Below, in pieces: positions 10,904 through 60,607 of a DNA stretch of 64,000 nucleotides; positions within the stretch are counted from its first letter, which is position 1, and each line of letters starts with the position of its first letter. The notes below the pieces were generated by a model, which was given only the letters and a program-made list of their open reading frames with translations, was not told the DNA's origin and made no database searches. The DNA is from a virus. The stretch spans positions 30,477 through 94,476 of the IMG/VR virus record IMGVR_UViG_3300050120_000158; one strand, given 5' to 3'. Made by a program: the position numbers and the translations under genes.

Positions 10904-11401
10904 TCAAATACTCCGATTATTGATTTGTTCGCTTCGTGTGGCCCATGTGCAATTGTCGAGATTATAATGCCCGTCGTTTTCCTTCCGTTCAATAGATAAA
11001 TCTCCGTCAGGCTTTAATCCCATATCCTCCAAGAAATTTTCGAATACATGCCAGCGCACACAAACGTAGATGCCGCGACCGCCATAATGCTTAAATCGAT
11101 TGTGCTTAGGGTAATAGCAACGTTTCATCATATTCTGCCAAGCAGTGTACTCGACACTTTTGCCAGATTTACGAGCGTGACCATGCGTGGTTAAGCGCTC
11201 TACATTCGTGTCAATACGAAAACAACCGCAGGATTGCGTATGGCCACTTCTGAGATTTGAGCCGCAAACTATGCAAATGGTTTCGCATTCACAGATGCAC
11301 GTCCAGTAGATTTGCTCGCAAGAGGTATGCGCCCTTGCTAGTACGGTCAACCGTCCGAATTGCTTCCCTATTAACGGAATAGCTTGCCGACCGCGCGCCA
11401 T
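10904..11401 (-). CDS. HNH homing-type endonuclease (copy 1)
   Basis: A 165-residue free-standing HNH enzyme. The N-terminal part has the GRLTVLARA strand and a Cys cluster (CICECETICIVCG, SCGC). The middle has WQNMMKRCYYPKHNRFKHYGGRGIYVC and FENFLEDMG, and the C-terminal part has SIERKENDGHYNLDNCTWAT, the conserved HNH/DNA-contact region of this phage family. The ATG at 11401 has GGAG five bases upstream; the longer frame start at 11467 lies in the hairpin region. Such enzymes cut DNA and promote their own spread. A cluster of strong hairpins lies just upstream (11419-11544). Confidence 0.85.
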   Translation of the reverse strand: MARGRQAIPLIGKQFGRLTVLARAHTSCEQIYWTCICECETICIVCGSNLRSGHTQSCGCFRIDTNVERLTTHGHARKSGKSVEYTAWQNMMKRCYYPKHNRFKHYGGRGIYVCVRWHVFENFLEDMGLKPDGDLSIERKENDGHYNLDNCTWATRSEQINNRSI

Positions 11402-11418
11402 GGTAGCTCCAAAAAACG

Positions 11419-11466
11419 TGCGCCGGATCAGGGCTAAGGGAGGCGTCCCCATACTGATCCGGCGCA
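11419..11466. repeat. Strong inverted repeat 1 upstream of HNH gene
   Basis: TGCGCCGGATCAG and CTGATCCGGCGCA form a perfect 13-bp stem with a 22-base loop. It lies 10 bases upstream of the HNH ribosome-binding site. No U-run follows, so it is not a simple terminator. Confidence 0.8.
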
Positions 11467-11507
11467 ATTGGCTAGCGATGGGATGCCCTCTCGCCGCTAA
11501 CCAATTG
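11465..11507 (-). repeat. Inverted repeat 2 upstream of HNH gene
   Basis: CAATTGGCTAGCG pairs with CGCTAACCAATTG. The single mismatch is a G-U pair only in minus-strand RNA, which suggests the structure acts in the leftward transcript. Confidence 0.7.
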
Positions 11508-13585: not shown

Positions 13586-14098
13586 TTACAAGTTAATTCG
13601 GCTTCCCTTGTTAGCCCCTTGCTCCGCGTTGGTCGCCCATCGACAGTTTAGCTTCTCATAATTACCGTCTGTGTTGGGATAACGATCAAGCGTTTTACCG
13701 GCAGGCCGATTACCCATGTCGTGTAAAAAGTTCTCGAAATCGAACCAACGCGGGCAAACACTAATACCGCGAGCGCCATACCGGTAATACCTATTGTTAT
13801 TTTTGTCATAGCACCTCGAATGCATCGCCATCCAACTTCTAAACGTCCCGGTAGGGTAGATGCCTTGCTTACGTCCAACACTGTGTCCGTGCGTAGTTTG
13901 CACAACCCTTGCACGATCCACTTGTAAACACTTGCAAGATTGGGTATGGCCGCTGCGCAAATTGTCGGTCTGCACAACAATTAGAGTTCCGCAATCGCAC
14001 AGGCAATTCCACTGTGTTTTTCCGTTTTTATTGGCCGCTGCACCCTGAACAAGCAATCTGGTAAAACGGTGGCCAGCAAGGTTTACTTTGGCTATCAA
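13586..14098 (-). CDS. HNH homing-type endonuclease (copy 2)
   Basis: A 170-residue enzyme of the same family as 10904-11401: a Cys cluster (CLCDCG, SCKC), then WMAMHSRCYDKNNNRYYRYGARGISVC, FENFLHDMG and TLDRYPNTDGNYEKLNCRWAT. The start is a TTG that overlaps the stop of the ribbon-helix-helix gene (TTGA), with GGGG seven bases upstream. It separates that gene from the DUF1257 block, which suggests insertion into a working operon. Confidence 0.85.
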   Translation of the reverse strand: MIAKVNLAGHRFTRLLVQGAAANKNGKTQWNCLCDCGTLIVVQTDNLRSGHTQSCKCLQVDRARVVQTTHGHSVGRKQGIYPTGTFRSWMAMHSRCYDKNNNRYYRYGARGISVCPRWFDFENFLHDMGNRPAGKTLDRYPNTDGNYEKLNCRWATNAEQGANKGSRINL

Positions 14099-26352: not shown

Positions 26353-26838
26353 CTATATGCGGAAACGACGCAACGGCATAGGGCGGCGATTGCCATTCTG
26401 CGCATCACGGGTAGCCCAAGAACAATTATCTGGATTGTAACCTTCGTCATTCTTTTCCCGTTCAAGCATAAGACCCGGAGGGCGTGGCCCCATATCAGCG
26501 TAGAAGTTTTCGAATGAGTGGAGCCAGCGATCACAGATTTTAATTCCTCGGCCACCATAGTCTTTATAACTCTTATTCATCGGGTTAGTGCAGCGCTGCT
26601 TCATACTGGCCCATGACCCATACTCAGATGACTTACGCAATCCGTGAGTGGTATGAACACCCTCTTTAAGACGGCATCCACATGTAGTTGTAGACCCTCT
26701 AAGCAAAGAGCTACTTATCGTTTCTAACGTACCACCGCATGTACACTGGCATTCCCACAAGTACCTACCATGTTTTTTACCCACTACTCTTAACGCTGTA
26801 AGGCGGCCAAATATCATTCCAGTAAGATCGTGTGCCAT
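26353..26838 (-). CDS. HNH homing-type endonuclease (copy 3)
   Basis: A 161-residue enzyme of the same family as 10904 and 13586: GMIFGRLTALRVVG, a Cys cluster (CQCTCG, TCGC), WASMKQRCTNPMNKSYKDYGGRGIKIC, FENFYADMG and MLEREKNDEGYNPDNCSWAT. The ATG at 26838 is used; the longer frame runs through the hairpin. The start codon and part of GGGAG are inside a 9-bp hairpin (26838-26869). The gene interrupts the tail-fibre operon. Confidence 0.85.
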   Translation of the reverse strand: MAHDLTGMIFGRLTALRVVGKKHGRYLWECQCTCGGTLETISSSLLRGSTTTCGCRLKEGVHTTHGLRKSSEYGSWASMKQRCTNPMNKSYKDYGGRGIKICDRWLHSFENFYADMGPRPPGLMLEREKNDEGYNPDNCSWATRDAQNGNRRPMPLRRFRI

Positions 26839-26869
26839 AGTCGGCTCCCTATTATGGATTAGCCGACTA
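26838..26869 (-). promoter_or_regulatory. Hairpin over the start codon of an HNH gene
   Basis: TAGTCGGCT and AGCCGACTA (9 bp, 14-base loop) fold in minus-strand RNA so that the A of the ATG and the end of the GGGAG site are paired. This could lower translation from read-through transcripts. Confidence 0.7.
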
Positions 26870-26908
26870 TAGTAACACATTACGTTAATTTTCACAAATT
26901 CGTGAAAA

Positions 26909-27430
26909 TTAAGATAGAGTAAATGTGAAGGTCGAGGTGAGGATGTCCAAGGCACCCTTGTTGATCACGGCGTAGATCACATGGTTGAGCAGGAGGCCAA
27001 CCGATGCTGCGTTGAGGACACCGGCTTCCGTAAGCGCCCCCGTTGCAACGCCAGCGGCGAAAGTGGAGGACAACGTTGCGACCTTGGCCGCATAGCTGTA
27101 GGCGGCCACCTGCCGGATCGACTCCGTTTGCAGCGCGGTATCTCCGATGGCCGCAGCCGTAACACCGGTTCCAACCGCAAGATAGCTCCCGACTGCGGGG
27201 CGACCTGACTGAATGAACAGGCAGTCCGAAATAAGCTGGAACCCAGCCGCCGTGATCAGGTTTTTCTTCTCGCGAACATCCTTGAGCTTGCCGTCAGGTC
27301 CGTACAGTTCGAACTTCCAGTTGCCGGTGACCTTGAGACCTTCGCTACGCGGGTCTTTTGCTTCCGCTGGCAGGAGCAAACCGCCGCCAGTACGAAGAAA
27401 ACCATCTGGAATTGTCATGGGAGGTGACAT
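26909..27430 (-). CDS. Tail-associated hypothetical protein
   Basis: A 173-residue protein. Residues about 35-75 (VTGNWKFELYGPDGKLKDVREKKNLITAAGFQLISDCLF, by position) resemble a short structural domain seen in phage minor virion proteins, followed by an Ala/Thr-rich beta region. I used the ATG at 27430, giving MSPPMTIPDG. It follows the J-like tip protein and is likely a tip or fibre component. Confidence 0.65.
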   Translation of the reverse strand: MSPPMTIPDGFLRTGGGLLLPAEAKDPRSEGLKVTGNWKFELYGPDGKLKDVREKKNLITAAGFQLISDCLFIQSGRPAVGSYLAVGTGVTAAAIGDTALQTESIRQVAAYSYAAKVATLSSTFAAGVATGALTEAGVLNAASVGLLLNHVIYAVINKGALDILTSTFTFTLS

Positions 27431-27449: not shown

Positions 27450-30400
27450 TTATGCGGCCACTGTGGAGTAAGTGCCCGACGCTGCGATTGAGGCGGAAGC
27501 ACGAGACGCGAGTGTACTATTCAAGTCATACATATACAAGGAGCGGGTAAAGCTATCCTGCACTATGGCAAGCTCCCAGCGCTGTTCGCCGGTGCCAGAA
27601 ACCGTCATCGAAATATCGTTCGCTGGATTGCCGTCACTCAAAAGAAGTCGTGGCCCAGTGTCGTTCTTGTACCAAAGTACCATATGGCTTCCACTATACT
27701 GACCTACCTTGGCGAGTTGTAGCGCTTGATCGAATACGCCAGCGCCAAAGATATCTGATGGTGTAAATCGAACAGTAATTTGCAGGGTAAACGTTGCCGC
27801 TACTGAGATAGTGTAGCCGGGTTCATCGCAGACAATTGACGTTCCATTATAGGTAGCGCCGACGCCTGTTACATATTTGCCTTGAGTAGCCGCCGTGCCA
27901 TTAAGCGTTCCGGTGATGCCGATCTCGAATGACCACACCTCTTGGACTGTTACGGGGTACGTGGCCGCCGCCTTGATCGTGGCAATAAACCAGTTGACTT
28001 GAGCGTTCCCCAAATCTAGCAACGGCTGCCAAGCGACCTGTGCTTGCGGATCGGTCCATAGGAACGTCGCATTCTGCCATTGCGGTGTGGCCGCATCACT
28101 GACGAAGTTGTAATCGAACCATGTTCTGGCGCGAACCTGCGCGTCATCTGGGTAGCCCGTATCAATCTGGAATTCATAGTGCCCCGTCAATACCCCGGCC
28201 TGCATTGACAATTCACTGTTATCAAATCCGCTAGGCGTCATGCCATAGCAGAACCCGGGCCATGCGAGAGCGGATTGATCGTCCGTATAAATAACATTCC
28301 TTGTTTGGACCGCGACAAGCAGCACCTCGGCAAAGCCCGCATTGAGGCTATACAACCCTACACCGGAAAGCGATTTGATCCAGAACTTACGGTTTTGCGT
28401 AAGGGGGTACATGACGTTCGCGGTGTTGCCCGATACGAGAGCAACCTTTCTGCCGATGGCAAAACTATCGCCTTCCCTTATCTCGTATCGAATATCGGTT
28501 CCGTTAACCTTATTCCAGTTGAAAATCACTCGGTCATTGTCTTGCGTTGCATAGAAGTTTTGTACGTCATCCGGGGGAGCAACGGAGGTAACAACGGATA
28601 CCGCATTGACGCTGTAGTGCTTCGTATCGTCGAGCGCCTTGATGAAGAACGTATGGTTGTTCGTGTCGTTAAGAACAACGAATTCCGTTGTGCCGTTCAT
28701 CTGTGTGGTAACTAGAGAGCCGCCATCCCATGAACTACCTTGGCGGATTTCGTAACCAACCACGTCAAGATCGGCAACAGCATTCCAGCTAAGCTGCACA
28801 CCGCTGATCGTCCGCGTTGCGGTGAAGTGCGTAACATCTGCCGGGGGCGCCGATTTTCCAAGGGCCGTATAGCTGATGTAACTAAAAGCCGAGTTTCCAC
28901 CGATAGTAGCAATCGCCCGAACTCCGAATGTATAGAGGCCCGGTGTTTCGTCGGTCATCGTGTAGCTAACGTCCGAAGTACCGGACAGTATTTGGAATGG
29001 ACTGCCCGCGAACGAATATACTAGCTGATAATAATTGATCCGGGTGTCCGGGACCGGTCCCCACGAAATAGTCAACTTCGTGCGGACTTGGTTGTTCGCC
29101 ACGTAGATAGCTTCCGAGCAAACAATATTTGTCGGCGCAGCAATCTGCGACGTATCGTCGATAAGTTTCTTGGTGGTGATAGCCTGATAGCCGGTCTCAA
29201 CACGCGCGTATTTGGTTGGGTCATACTCAAGCGCGGAAATTTCGAATGTCTGCGGCGCTATCTCTCTGTTATTGACGATCCTAAACAAGCGCGGAGCTAC
29301 ATCAGTGCCGGTAATAACGAATGGAACACCATTGTTGGGTGCCGCTGGCAGAGTACCAGCAAGCGGCACTACCGCATATGCGCCGTTCAGTCCCGGCGTA
29401 ACCGGAACGTCAACCACCGTAACAAATGAACTATAATAAAGCGTGCCACTTCTAAAGACAGAGAAGTTCTGCCCGGTGCGGCTTGTTCCGGCATAGACGG
29501 TTGTGAGTGCGAGACTGCCCGCGCTGGTTGGCGTGGCCGCGAGTTCATATTGCCTGTTATCACCCTCAAAAATGATTATGTCATTCGCCGCGAGCGGCAA
29601 AAGAGAGTTGTTAAACGCGGTGCCCGATCCATTGATAACGTTGCTGCCGTTCAATACGGCAACGCGGCCCCATGTCGGGATGACGACGCTCATTACATAC
29701 GTTTCAAGATTACTAAACGTATACGGAGCATCCATGGTGACGCTGGTGGCGGTCGCTGATACAACACGACCACCTTGCCTGAGACCGGCGTAAGCGGGAT
29801 CGCTAACGGATATAATTTCTCCCGGTACTGCGTCAGCATGGTCCCATCCTGCCCGATAGGTAACAACGTCCGTTGCATATTTCTCGGTATCAAGGGTCCA
29901 CCGACCCATGCGGCGGGCCTGCCCTCTCGATGTACATCCGAACGCCGTTATATCGATAGTGATATACCCAAATCGAGCAATAAGATCGGCATCTTCAACA
30001 ACGTCTACCGTTGGCGTATAGAAATTGGCAGGGTCATTCCATGTAACAAGGACGACGGAGTGCCGCGCGTTAAGCGGAACGCCGGTATAGGCAAACCCGC
30101 TGCTGAGTACATTGGCACGGGTAACAACGCGGCTAACTGGTCCCGGCGCGTCTTGTGACGCCATCACTTGTCCGGTGGCCCAGTAGATCATGCCGCGAAA
30201 CGTTCCGGCAAACATGTTCAAAACATCATACGCATTACTTTGCGACGTAATCTGCGTATTGAAAACAAAGCGCGGCTCTGTGCCGCCGCGACCGTCCTCG
30301 ACAAATTCATCGCAATATTTTGCGATGGTATAGAGAGTGGAGAAGTCTAGGTAATCATCGTTGATCCACTGCCCCAGCCCGTAACGCTCATGCGTCAAAA

Positions 30401-49606: not shown

Positions 49607-49984
49607 TTATTTTCGGTTGAGCGGGTTGTTCCCCATCCGAAAGCTCCATAATGCGCAATCGACAACCTCGCACATACGAGCGCCCTTGGCTCCGCTCGCA
49701 CATAGAACGCAAAACGCGCGGATTGCCGAACCTTTACTACGGATGCGATTACGATACGAATGGTCAAGATCGGTATCGTTGTCCGCGTCTCGGACCATAA
49801 GGGTAAGGTCATCTACCGGAGCCTGCATCGGGTTCGTGCCGCTGTAGGTCAAGTGCCCAGCAGTTCGCAAGGTATTGGCGGTTCCCCCGGTAAGAACAGC
49901 ATCCTTGCTAGGAACGTGCGGGGCCGCGACTCTTGCAGGTTCCTGCACGGACCCGACGACAAAATTGCGCTGCTTAATCGCCAT
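49607..49984 (-). CDS. Small protein with four-Cys C-terminal motif (paralogue A)
   Basis: A 125-residue protein. The C terminus (IRAFCVLCASGAKGARMCEVVDCALWSFRMGNNP by position) is a four-Cys zinc-type motif also present in the protein at 50401-50931. The ATG at 49984 is used; the palindrome at 49934 codes VQEPA near residue 15. An HNH gene lies between the two paralogues. Function unknown. Confidence 0.7.
   Translation of the reverse strand: MAIKQRNFVVGSVQEPARVAAPHVPSKDAVLTGGTANTLRTAGHLTYSGTNPMQAPVDDLTLMVRDADNDTDLDHSYRNRIRSKGSAIRAFCVLCASGAKGARMCEVVDCALWSFRMGNNPLNRK
49934..49947 (+). repeat. Dispersed palindrome, TT centre
   Basis: Exact copy near the 5' end of 49607-49984, read as VQEPA. 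Confidence 0.97.
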
Positions 49985-50408
49985 GTCGCTTATTCCTACT
50001 CGTATTGTTAGCTTGTTCGATTTTGGTAGACCATTTGACATTACCCGGAACATAGGGCCTGTCGTTTTCAATTCGATCTATGGAATGCTTGGACGTGGGA
50101 CGCTTACCAACGTGTGCAAAGAATTTGCCGAAATCGTCCCACTCGGCGCATACCTGAATACAATGCATGGTTACCCATACATTGTATTCAGGTATGCCGG
50201 ATAGCCCATGCCTATAACTGCTTTTGCTAACAACCTCTTTATGAAAACAGCCGCAAGACTTAGAATTCCCATTCTTTAGGTTTGTGGCTCGTACAACCCG
50301 TGCAGCCCCGCATTTACAAGCACAGTTCCAGTAATACGCGCTACCGCGACGTTCATTGAAAGAAACAACGGTAAGATACCCGAATACCTGCCCGACAAGG
50401 CTATTCAT
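49974..50408 (-). pseudogene. HNH endonuclease with palindrome in place of the catalytic segment (copy 4)
   Basis: A 144-residue open frame of the same family as 10904, 13586 and 26353. N-terminal (GQVFGYLTVVSF, CACKCG, SCGC) and C-terminal parts (HSIDRIENDRPYVPGNVKWST) are intact. The middle, where relatives have about 20 residues including RCYxPKNxRYxxYGGRG, is missing. Instead YNVWVTMHCIQVCAEW is encoded by a 50-bp near-perfect palindrome (50148-50197). The reading frame is kept, but the enzyme probably lacks activity. The ATG at 50408 overlaps the upstream stop. Confidence 0.7.
50148..50197. repeat. Long palindrome inside an HNH gene
   Basis: GCATACCTGAATACAATG at 50148-50165 is perfectly inverted at 50180-50197. 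After one mismatch the pairing continues (ATGG/CCAT), giving 23-position arms around a four-base centre TTAC. Confidence 0.95.
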
Positions 50409-50931
50409 CGCTAGCCCCGTCATCAGGATCATCCTCAACCTCTATTTTCTCGTCGCCCTCAACTTCGATATCCGCGACGGGCATAAGGGTCTTGCCAAAG
50501 AACGGGTTGTTGCCGAGACGGAACGGCCACAACGGGCAATGGGTCGCCGGGCAAAGGCGCACCTCGACGGGCTGACCCCCCATGCAAGTGATACAGAACG
50601 CGCGAATACCGGTGCCTTGGTTCCTGATCCGCTTGAAAGACGCCTTGGTGTTACTATCCTCAATCGGGCGGTCGTGTATCTGCGCCTTAAGGTCTTTGAC
50701 CGGAATTTCCTTAGGATTTTTGCCCTGATACTTCAAAAGGAATTCGAGGCTCGCGACATGCGCCTCAAGATCGAGAACCGCATCCCAATCTTTTTCAGCG
50801 TTCGCCGTGTCGAGTTCGACCAGCGAAACATAATATCGTGACTCATTGCGCCGAAAGGATTTAATATCGATGATACTAAAGCCGTCCGCTCTAAGTTGTT
50901 CGTCTGTGCGTATCGTTGATTTGTTTAGCAT
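50401..50931 (-). CDS. Hypothetical protein with four-Cys C-terminal motif (paralogue B)
   Basis: A 176-residue protein. Residues 1-105 are helical and charged. Residues about 118-155 carry IRAFCITCMGGQPVEVRLCPATHCPLWPFRLGNNP (by position), matching paralogue A, then an acidic tail. Motifs of this type occur in several phage packaging-region proteins and probably bind zinc. Function unknown. Confidence 0.7.
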   Translation of the reverse strand: MLNKSTIRTDEQLRADGFSIIDIKSFRRNESRYYVSLVELDTANAEKDWDAVLDLEAHVASLEFLLKYQGKNPKEIPVKDLKAQIHDRPIEDSNTKASFKRIRNQGTGIRAFCITCMGGQPVEVRLCPATHCPLWPFRLGNNPFFGKTLMPVADIEVEGDEKIEVEDDPDDGASDE

Positions 50932-52050: not shown

Positions 52051-54183
52051 TTAGCTGCGTTGAACGCTGCGCCTAAACACGGACTTTCTAATCGAGACGT
52101 GCCTAGTAATTGCTACCTTGGCCTTGGACGCTTCGGCATTCACGCCGGTTGCAGGTTCCTGCACGGGCTTGCCAACGTTAACCTTGCCCATGATCGGGCT
52201 CCAAGCAACGCGGCGCTTAAGCAGGAACGAGGTAACGCCGCAGACAGCATCCGCAACGTCCTTGGTGCCGTTCGATCGATGGTCAACCTTGTCTGGTGCC
52301 GTCCCCTGCCCTCTGACGTACTCAAGGCCAGCTAGTTCGTTCGCAAGCCATTGGTGATTGGGTAAATACACGGCGGCATCGTACAAAGAGTCACGAAGCG
52401 AGCGGTACGGATCAATCTTCTCGACGCTAAGGTAGTCGGCCTTGAAGTTCTTGGTCCGCAGAATTTGACGGCTATCTACTGATTGGAAGCCGTCAAACGT
52501 GACATACTCAATCGGCAAATTGTATTGATCGCGCATCATGATAAGGAATTCGCGAACATGCGCGAACTCGATTTCACCGCCCGGTGGCGGAACTACGCGC
52601 ATGATAACGTCAAACCCAACGATTGGTTTCAGTTCACTAATGCGCAACTTGGTTACCGGATCGTATCGCTCAATTAGCTTCTGCCCGGCGATATGGCCGA
52701 TTGCAATTCCGCAAGCATCCCGCTTATGGCCAAGATCGATATGGGCCATTCTAAACATCGGAATATTCGTAAGCAGTCGATCCCGGTGCGGCTTGGGTAT
52801 CCCAAGCGAAAAGTCGTATTCTTCCCGGTCGAACGGATTGATGTACCCATGCTCCGTTCCGTCACGCATACAATCATGTATCGCGGAACGTCGACTAATG
52901 AACGGACGCGATGCGAGGATGGTGACGCCAGCGAAGTCGCGCAGTGATCCGTCTGTGTCTTTTTCGAAGTCGCCCTTGAAGTCCATCGGCACGTCGATGA
53001 CTTGGCAGTCGGCAATTGGTTCCTCACCTTCCGCCAAGATGCGGGATCGCACCATGTTATTGCCGACCATGACGCGGAATGTTTCGTCTAGGAACTGTTC
53101 GCGGCCCTTAACTTCCCATATCGCTTTCGACATGACGAAGATGTTGGGGTCCGTGCCGCCCGCCATGGTTGACTCCATGGCCTTAAGCTCAGTGAAGTCG
53201 TCTGGGAAGCGTGACGATGAAATCAGAAACAAAATGCCGGGCAGTTTGCCACGGTTGGCGAACCGCGACCGGCGACGGCGGCTGATAGCTTCATAGATCG
53301 ACTTAGCTTGGCTGTAAGAGCCGTCGAGTTGGGCGTTCTGCGATTTGGACTTAAGAACCTTCTGCATGAAGTTCATTTCGTCCAGCACGCCGCCCATGAC
53401 GTTCATGGATATTGCACCCGTAGACGACGACGAGACCGGGAGGACAGAGAGCTTCTGTTCATCAAAACGCATCTCGGTAGTAATGAACTTGTTGTAAGGG
53501 TAAATATGCTTGAAATACGGACTGTTCTTAATGTTTCCTCCGAAGTCATCGAAGACCGCTTTCTTTGCAGTAGCGAGCCTAATAGACTGGATTGTAAATA
53601 CGATGGTGGACCCGGCACGAATGCCATAGGTCGTTTGTGGGTGCCGCATGCATGAGGTCTTATAGATGCTCCGCGCAAGCATAATATTAGACAAAGTAGT
53701 TTTACCATAACCAAGCGCTCCCTTTAGAACCGCCTCGACATATATATCCTTGTCGAGTTCAAGCATAGCCTCCAAGACGCCGGGGAAGATATCCTCCCTC
53801 TTGATGCCAAGGTAAGCTTGCCCGAATATGAATTCCTCAAGCGGAACCACTTTCCGGCGAAGCTCGGTAAGGGATACGAGTGCATCTATATCGCCCGTAT
53901 CGCGGAACGTCTCAACGCCATCAAGCCAAAGATCGCGGGTTTCGCCATCATCCTGTTGATTAGCTTCCTCAATGATCTGGTCGAGAATAAGCTGGGTCCG
54001 CTCGTCTAACCCGTATTGCGTGTCTGCCGGGCTGACTTTAGGTGCAGGAACCTGCAAGTTAATATGGCGGCGAATGTGCAGAACCGGCGCTGCAATCTTC
54101 TGCAACACCGGCTTGGTAACTATAAGTCTTGGCTGCGGCAGTATCTTGAAGCCGCTCTGCCTAACGACAGTGATCGTTTGCAT
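52051..54183 (-). CDS. terL: Terminase large subunit
   Basis: A 710-residue packaging motor. The ATPase domain has Walker A GALGYGKTT near residue 158 and Walker B GGVLDEMNFM. The nuclease domain has HIDLGHKRDACGIAIGH, VTFDGFQSVDSRQIL and HRSNGTKDVADAVCG, carrying the expected acidic residues. A dispersed palindrome is present near each end (52150 coding VQEPA, 54043 coding LQVPA), both outside the catalytic domains. The start abuts the small-subunit stop. Confidence 0.92.
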   Translation of the reverse strand: MQTITVVRQSGFKILPQPRLIVTKPVLQKIAAPVLHIRRHINLQVPAPKVSPADTQYGLDERTQLILDQIIEEANQQDDGETRDLWLDGVETFRDTGDIDALVSLTELRRKVVPLEEFIFGQAYLGIKREDIFPGVLEAMLELDKDIYVEAVLKGALGYGKTTLSNIMLARSIYKTSCMRHPQTTYGIRAGSTIVFTIQSIRLATAKKAVFDDFGGNIKNSPYFKHIYPYNKFITTEMRFDEQKLSVLPVSSSSTGAISMNVMGGVLDEMNFMQKVLKSKSQNAQLDGSYSQAKSIYEAISRRRRSRFANRGKLPGILFLISSSRFPDDFTELKAMESTMAGGTDPNIFVMSKAIWEVKGREQFLDETFRVMVGNNMVRSRILAEGEEPIADCQVIDVPMDFKGDFEKDTDGSLRDFAGVTILASRPFISRRSAIHDCMRDGTEHGYINPFDREEYDFSLGIPKPHRDRLLTNIPMFRMAHIDLGHKRDACGIAIGHIAGQKLIERYDPVTKLRISELKPIVGFDVIMRVVPPPGGEIEFAHVREFLIMMRDQYNLPIEYVTFDGFQSVDSRQILRTKNFKADYLSVEKIDPYRSLRDSLYDAAVYLPNHQWLANELAGLEYVRGQGTAPDKVDHRSNGTKDVADAVCGVTSFLLKRRVAWSPIMGKVNVGKPVQEPATGVNAEASKAKVAITRHVSIRKSVFRRSVQRS
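52150..52163 (+). repeat. Dispersed palindrome, TT centre
   Basis: Exact copy near the 3' end of terL, read as VQEPA. Confidence 0.97.
54043..54056 (+). repeat. Dispersed palindrome, AA centre
   Basis: Exact copy near the 5' end of terL, read as LQVPA. Confidence 0.97.
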
Positions 54184-60571: not shown

Positions 60572-60607
60572 AAAGCCCCGGTTATTAACCGGGGCTTATT
60601 CTTTTGT
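60572..60607. terminator. Bidirectional terminator
   Basis: AAGCCCCGGTTA and TAACCGGGGCTT form a perfect 12-bp stem, followed on the plus strand by TTATTCTTTT. It ends the plus-strand gene and could also end the leftward gene at 60607. Confidence 0.85.

Follow-up and report, generated by a model that had tools for sequence, protein, structure and literature searches.

A coding palindrome in an inserted phage HNH-type gene and its probable origin in one short template switch

How a near-perfect 50-bp palindrome came to occupy the middle of an HNH-type gene that is still open, at a place where the relatives of this gene encode a longer and highly conserved segment, is the question raised by this locus. 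The window analysed here is a stretch of 64,000 nt, positions 30477-94476 of a 94,476-bp virus record, and coordinates refer to the window unless stated otherwise.

The HNH gene, its family and its insertion site

The gene lies on the minus strand (49974..50408) and was identified as an open reading frame with a profile match. Its frame runs from an ATG at 50408 to a stop codon at 49974-49976, in agreement with the preliminary description, according to which the frame survived, and its 144 codons encode a 144-residue protein that matches the PHROG 374 (HNH endonuclease) profile with E=1.1e-40. No Pfam or NCBIfam assignment was obtained for this protein, and no AP2 domain was detected in it. 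Our alignment holds 90 non-redundant homologues from this record (four others), viral contigs and bacterial genomes, and the gene is 17 codons short in comparison with all of them. The four further full-length members of the family in the 94-kb record (10904-11467, 13586-14098, 26353-26955, and record position 27557-28033) are 33-43% identical to the palindrome-bearing protein, and the closest homologues in the collections searched reach ~40-47% protein identity. Because these collections yielded no close DNA relative with an intact middle, all 90 protein homologues having the full middle, we infer the ancestral bases.

The gene sits exactly at a stop/start overlap between two other genes of the same strand. 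The stop codon of the upstream gene (50401..50931) overlaps the HNH start codon (GCGATGAATAG), and the ATG of the downstream gene (49607..49984) overlaps the HNH 3' end (CATGGCGATTAAG). In L013, the closest relative genome compared (terminase 75% and portal 69% identical; orthologue of the upstream gene 62% identical), there is no HNH gene at this site, and the flanking genes are joined directly at ATGCCGATTAAG. At that junction (...GCGAGCG ATG CCG ATT AAG...) the ATG is the start codon of the downstream gene, and the upstream gene finishes with GAT TAA; the empty site, of the type ...GCGAGCGATGCCGATTAAG..., is L013:11752-11764, with window counterparts at 50401-50408 and 49974-49984. The HNH end CATGGCGATTAAG makes use of the very GATTAA with which the upstream gene terminates in L013. 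Compared with each other, the two genomes show a present/absent polymorphism for the HNH gene, the site being conserved in other respects. Since the gene is present at the exact L013 joint, we regard it as an insertion of the free-standing homing type, and phage homing genes have in fact been reported beside terminase and structural (portal) genes (PMC10448857). A different HNH homologue, 31% identical, follows the downstream gene in L013. The flanking genes themselves, 49607-49984 and 50401-50931, are adjacent, uncharacterised paralogues with 42% identity over 80 residues that lie between terminase and portal and are kept as a pair in many relatives; the pair has no PHROG match, and a search for relatives of the upstream gene found no further ones. 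A 710-residue protein encoded at 52051-54183 resembles annotated terminases of Rhodobacter and Agrobacterium phages, with no PHROG v4 match at E<=0.001.

The lost block and the palindrome in its place

Spacing in this family is rigid. The stretch that begins with the W of W-x-x-M and ends with the W of VC-x-x-W has 30 residues in 90/90 homologues and 13 in the palindrome-bearing copy, and between M and VC there are 21 residues in the relatives versus 4 here, so that the DNA from M to VC has gone from 63 nt to 12 nt and the net loss is 17 residues. A longer middle in the relatives had been described from the outset, and this part of the claim stands; the figure of about 20 additional residues does not, as it is 17 net in the three relatives of the window and in the 87 others. 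The same short middle without a palindrome, which would have spoken for a different history, was looked for and is present in 0 of the 90. Missing from the copy is the R-C...Y-x-x-Y-G-G segment, with conservation in the 90-homologue alignment of 0.98 for R, 0.99 for C, 0.96 for Y and 0.98 for G, and the R-G that follows the deleted block in the family (88% and 98%; R in 79/90, G in 88/90) is replaced by H-C, which leaves the protein with neither the fixed spacing of PHROG 374 nor its R-C...Y-G-G-R-G block. Nine of 37 near-invariant sites are broken in this protein, six of them in the palindrome region, against a homologue median of 1. The substitutions outside that region are D99H, G117R and C124V, which hint weakly, as far as sequence can tell, at relaxed constraint on the gene.

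The DNA that stands in place of the lost block is an inverted repeat with 23-nt arms at 50148-50170 and 50175-50197 (50-bp palindrome 50148-50197), of which 22/23 positions are paired, around a 4-nt centre at 50171..50174 that reads TTAC in the window and, on the coding minus strand, GTAA, a GNRA-type tetraloop. The 23 positions, the one mismatch and the four-base centre are thus as first described. In an inverted-repeat scan with +1/-2 scoring the palindrome scored 20, the runner-up of the window 12, and the best hairpin in eight Markov-randomised windows <=11, by which a chance origin is ruled out; it is by a wide margin the strongest short-loop hairpin of the window. The second-best inverted repeat, at 60573-60597, is a perfect hairpin with 12-bp arms (AAGCCCCGGTTA-T-TAACCGGGGCTT), and another one, TTAATTTTCACAAA/TTCGTGAAAATTAA at 26885-26912, lies just upstream of the HNH gene 26353-26838.

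On the coding strand the region reads ...GGC ATA CCT GAA TAC AAT GTA TGG GTA ACC ATG / CAT TGT ATT CAG GTA TGC / GCC GAG TGG..., where the slashes delimit the inverted copy. The 5' arm in gene sense, GCATACCTGAATACAATGTATGG (50175..50197), encodes IPEYNVW, and its residues fit the family (Y in 72/90, W in 86/90, E in 37/90). The 3' arm encodes MHCIQVC, which fits the family at M, I, V and C only. Left and right arms had previously been read as GIPEYNV and its inverse, and in gene sense these are indeed (G)IPEYNVW and MHCIQVC. Because the upstream arm fits the family and the downstream arm does so at those four residues only, the upstream arm is taken as original, the source of the inverted copy, and the downstream arm as the copy; the reverse assignment is ruled out, as the conserved Y..W is found in the product of the 5' arm, and R-G is not kept in that of the 3' arm.

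The sole mismatch of the palindrome, G 50166 opposite T 50179 (G·T), is the final base of the ATG of Met81 (50166..50168), a Met in 78/90 homologues; it is the last base kept from the original sequence and marks switch point 1. From there the templated copy, CATTGTATTCAGGTATGC (50148..50165), runs for 18 nt, encodes HCIQVC and is the exact reverse complement of 50180-50197 (GCATACCTGAATACAATG) in 18/18 nt. Its last six bases, GTATGC (50148..50153), are the codons of Val86-Cys87 (V in 61/90, C in 84/90), our proposed return microhomology and switch points 3/4; the homology may extend to ATTCAGGTATGC (50148-50159), so that its length could be as little as a few nt or as much as ~12 nt, or lie anywhere between. 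The copy encodes I-x-V-C at the exact place of the family's I/V-x-V/I-C, whereas copies of the same 18-nt source made in silico in 91 intact homologues gave I/V-x-V/I-C in 0/91 and matched the VC region of their own gene over <=4 terminal nt, which speaks for homology at the V-C codons as the means of return. Because the copy also matches a conserved Ile (84/90), the native right flank may have resembled the inverse of the left arm before the event, as a pre-existing quasipalindrome sharing up to about 12 nt (ATTCAGGTATGC) with it.

Template switching and alternative origins

We consider it probable that a single short template switch made both the palindrome and the deletion, in an HNH gene that had been inserted between two overlapping phage genes. 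The sequence of events would begin with the entry of a free-standing HNH-type, probably homing, endonuclease gene between these genes, the switch coming later. During synthesis of the coding strand the nascent 3' end would have stopped just past the conserved Met codon (...TATGG GTAA CCATG) and folded back, ATGG pairing with CCAT around the GTAA loop with the terminal G opposite T; the polymerase would then have extended from this G·T end, reading 18 nt of the nascent strand backwards as its template. A jump between strands is an alternative route to the identical product. The new 3' end, GTATGC, would have paired again with the original template where the latter encodes the Val-Cys of VC-x-x-W, skipping ~60 nt, and the outcome would be an M-to-VC distance cut from 63 nt to 12 nt, a kept frame and a new 23-bp inverted repeat. 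Both the ancestral sequence and the direction of synthesis are inferred in this scheme. The mismatch at the last base of the Met codon is what would be expected if CCATG had been synthesised on the regular template and had then paired with ATGG and been extended, and the kept frame would follow from the return by homology at the V-C codons.

That template switching accounts for the deletion as well as for the inverted copy had been proposed in the preliminary description, and the mismatch at the switch point, the fold-back hairpin and the V-C return homology support it well. Around the switch points there are, in fact, a local hairpin (ATGG-GTAA-CCAT, 4 bp in the W-V-T-M codons) and a microhomology (GTATGC at the V-C codons, its homology deduced from the family). 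The order of the points on the coding strand is 3-2-1-4, and in the four-point notation a point 2 before point 1 is compatible with intra-strand switching (PMC7954356). An independent study of template switches in RNA genes found an excess of 4-nt and of GNRA loops (PMC8794818). What speaks against this explanation is that the fold-back hairpin is weak and that one of >=4 bp occurs in only 3/72 homologues, the paralogue L002 among these; on its own, ATGG-GTAA-CCAT is predicted to fold as single-stranded DNA at -2.3 kcal/mol, a value not better than many shuffles (41/200).

The same product would result from a double-strand break, if fold-back synthesis after Met had copied 18 nt and microhomology end joining at GTATGC had then removed the intervening 60 nt: an inverted templated insertion, a deletion and microhomology at the far junction are expected there as well, and phage DNA is exposed to breaks, including those made by homing nucleases, of which this 94-kb record has five related genes. 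Such a history, which needs a break and an end-joining pathway where a replication template switch needs one local event, appears to us rather unlikely, even though sequence by itself cannot separate the two. An amplification or assembly artefact, in which a chimeric inverted read from library preparation entered the assembly, should be considered given that whole-genome amplification gives rise, with high frequency, to chimeras that are inverted and carry deletions (PMC1855051). Such chimeras, however, come from one switch, after which the sequence stays inverted, whereas here the original orientation is back after 18 nt, in frame and at homologous V-C codons; an artefact would moreover have to dominate the consensus, and a 50-bp palindrome is short enough for ordinary reads to span. 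We therefore hold this origin to be very unlikely.

It could also be thought that the gene acquired a functional element, be it an operator, a packaging or attenuation site, or a selfish palindrome of the Rickettsia palindromic element type, since the predicted RNA hairpin is strong (-50.2 kcal/mol for 106 nt, z -7.7) and the gene sits between the terminase and portal genes. This seems extremely improbable. The palindrome is single in the 94,476-bp record, where neither arm has a second copy with <=3 mismatches allowed; the exact 23-mer arm has 0 matches in viral_contigs; no terminator, terminator tail or Rfam family was found at the palindrome; and the terminase-portal region of 16 relatives' genomes holds no comparable hairpin. 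A search for the ancestor with a 16-mer arm fragment gave 16 matches, none in an HNH homologue. In addition, one half of the palindrome is conserved sequence that belongs to the gene itself, and compared with its homologues the protein has lost length, not gained it. A dispersed selfish element of the Rickettsia type is ruled out by the single copy and by a protein that was shortened, with no residues added.

A single short template switch, our preferred explanation, has close parallels. Short-range switches described by the four-point model and as quasipalindrome mutagenesis (PMC7954356, PMC8794818, PMC7202029) share with this locus the reverse-complement copy of adjacent sequence, the return to the template, the fold-back on a small hairpin whose 4-nt loop is of the GNRA class and a near-perfect hairpin made in one event. 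They differ in that the return here lies ~60 nt ahead and deletes a conserved protein block, and in that the ancestor is known from protein homologues alone. In yeast coding genes (PMC8604942) multinucleotide changes via inverted-repeat switching also kept the frame, but those are arm homogenisations or spacer inversions that touch <=5 neighbouring residues, while 21 residues became 4 here. Coding palindromes of nematomorph mitochondria (PMC6649704), likewise near-perfect inverted repeats in open frames for which a template-switch origin was proposed, are many and long and encode conserved functional protein in both arms, unlike the single repeat with one arm off-family found here. The mutation type is thus already known, and what we describe is an unusually clean single-sequence footprint of it in a known gene family.

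Most template-switch events come to light when nearly identical genomes are compared. In this case all the footprints (the mismatch at the switch point, the tetraloop, the copied arm and the return microhomology) are kept in one sequence, and the ancestral length can be read from a family with rigid spacing. Violations of conserved spacing that coincide with coding palindromes could be screened for on this basis. The locus also suggests that a single step can be enough to inactivate a selfish nuclease gene without a frameshift, with the overlapping downstream start untouched. As to why the frame is still kept, the event may be recent, or, because the start of the downstream gene overlaps the HNH 3' end, an open HNH frame may be favoured as an aid to translation of that gene.

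The shortened protein and a genome-wide repeat

With regard to its family, the gene shares with the IPA-HNH phage homing genes (PMC10448857) the PHROG 374 profile, a Cys-rich N-terminal domain, a predicted beta-beta-alpha C-terminal hairpin and a terminase/structural neighbourhood, and may be kin to that group. The same study also reports a HEG inferred to be inactive via a frameshift; here, in contrast to the genes described there, R-C...Y-G-G was lost internally and in frame by a palindrome-forming event, and no AP2 was detected.

The loss was initially described as replacement of the catalytic segment, which our models do not bear out: the lost block is highly conserved, yet the predicted beta-beta-alpha (HNH-type) nuclease hairpin lies downstream of the palindrome and is intact (approximately 50035..50078, minus strand; SIDRIENDRPYVPGN then VKW). 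AlphaFold models of an intact paralogue and of the palindrome-bearing protein both put strands and helix on S-I-D-R-I ... N-x-x-W ... N, in the latter with strands at residues 109-112 and 124-127 and a helix at 129-140. D111, R112, N123, W126 and N135 are present in this predicted hairpin, of which R112, N123, W126 and N135 are near-invariant; Y119 is invariant in the family, as are R112, N123 and W126, and the Cys at position 124, 98% conserved elsewhere, is V in this protein. The model of the shortened protein is confident (pLDDT 89.7), which is no proof of a real fold because 61 intact homologues are in its alignment. No PDB structure matched the models at E<=0.001, so catalytic residues are not assignable here; a structure search of predicted viral proteins gave 140 matches, several of them named HNH or AP2.

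Having lost the near-invariant R-C and the Y-G-G-R-G block, the protein is probably an inactive nuclease, and to call the endonuclease dead is a reasonable reading of its sequence. Three nearly invariant Cys lie near the region (in the deleted R-C, in V-C and in N-C-R-W), and His67 is nearly invariant too; one might speculate from this conservation that the three Cys and His67 form a metal site, and of these Cys the palindrome-bearing protein is without the first and has Val at the third. It is highly improbable, in our estimate, that the shortened protein was selected in its new form, for instance as a DNA-binding regulator or dominant inhibitor that kept the Cys-rich domain and nuclease hairpin and lost the R-C/YGGRG block. 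If it was, one template switch would have given a new protein function.

Another repeat is spread through this genome. The 14-bp near-palindrome TGCAGGAACCTGCA, on either strand and usually followed by A, has 29 exact copies in the window and, with one mismatch allowed, 32 (0.1 expected), and is found at 42 places in the 94-kb record. Its positions (e.g. 1148, 3778, 4392, 8233, 10103, 12174 ... 49934 ... 62972) are mostly 1.5-2.7 kb apart, and many copies lie inside reading frames, with QEPA as a recurrent peptide. None was found in the more distant relatives checked. L013 carries a variant, TGCAGGNNCCTGCA, at similar spacing (176, 1610, 2908, 4497, 6479, 8083, 10042, 11778, 14581 and 16079; 11 in 18 kb with one mismatch), one of them at the same gene position. 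To judge from the sequence, these repeats look like a genome-wide family of protein-binding sites, be they stoperator-, partition- or packaging-like.
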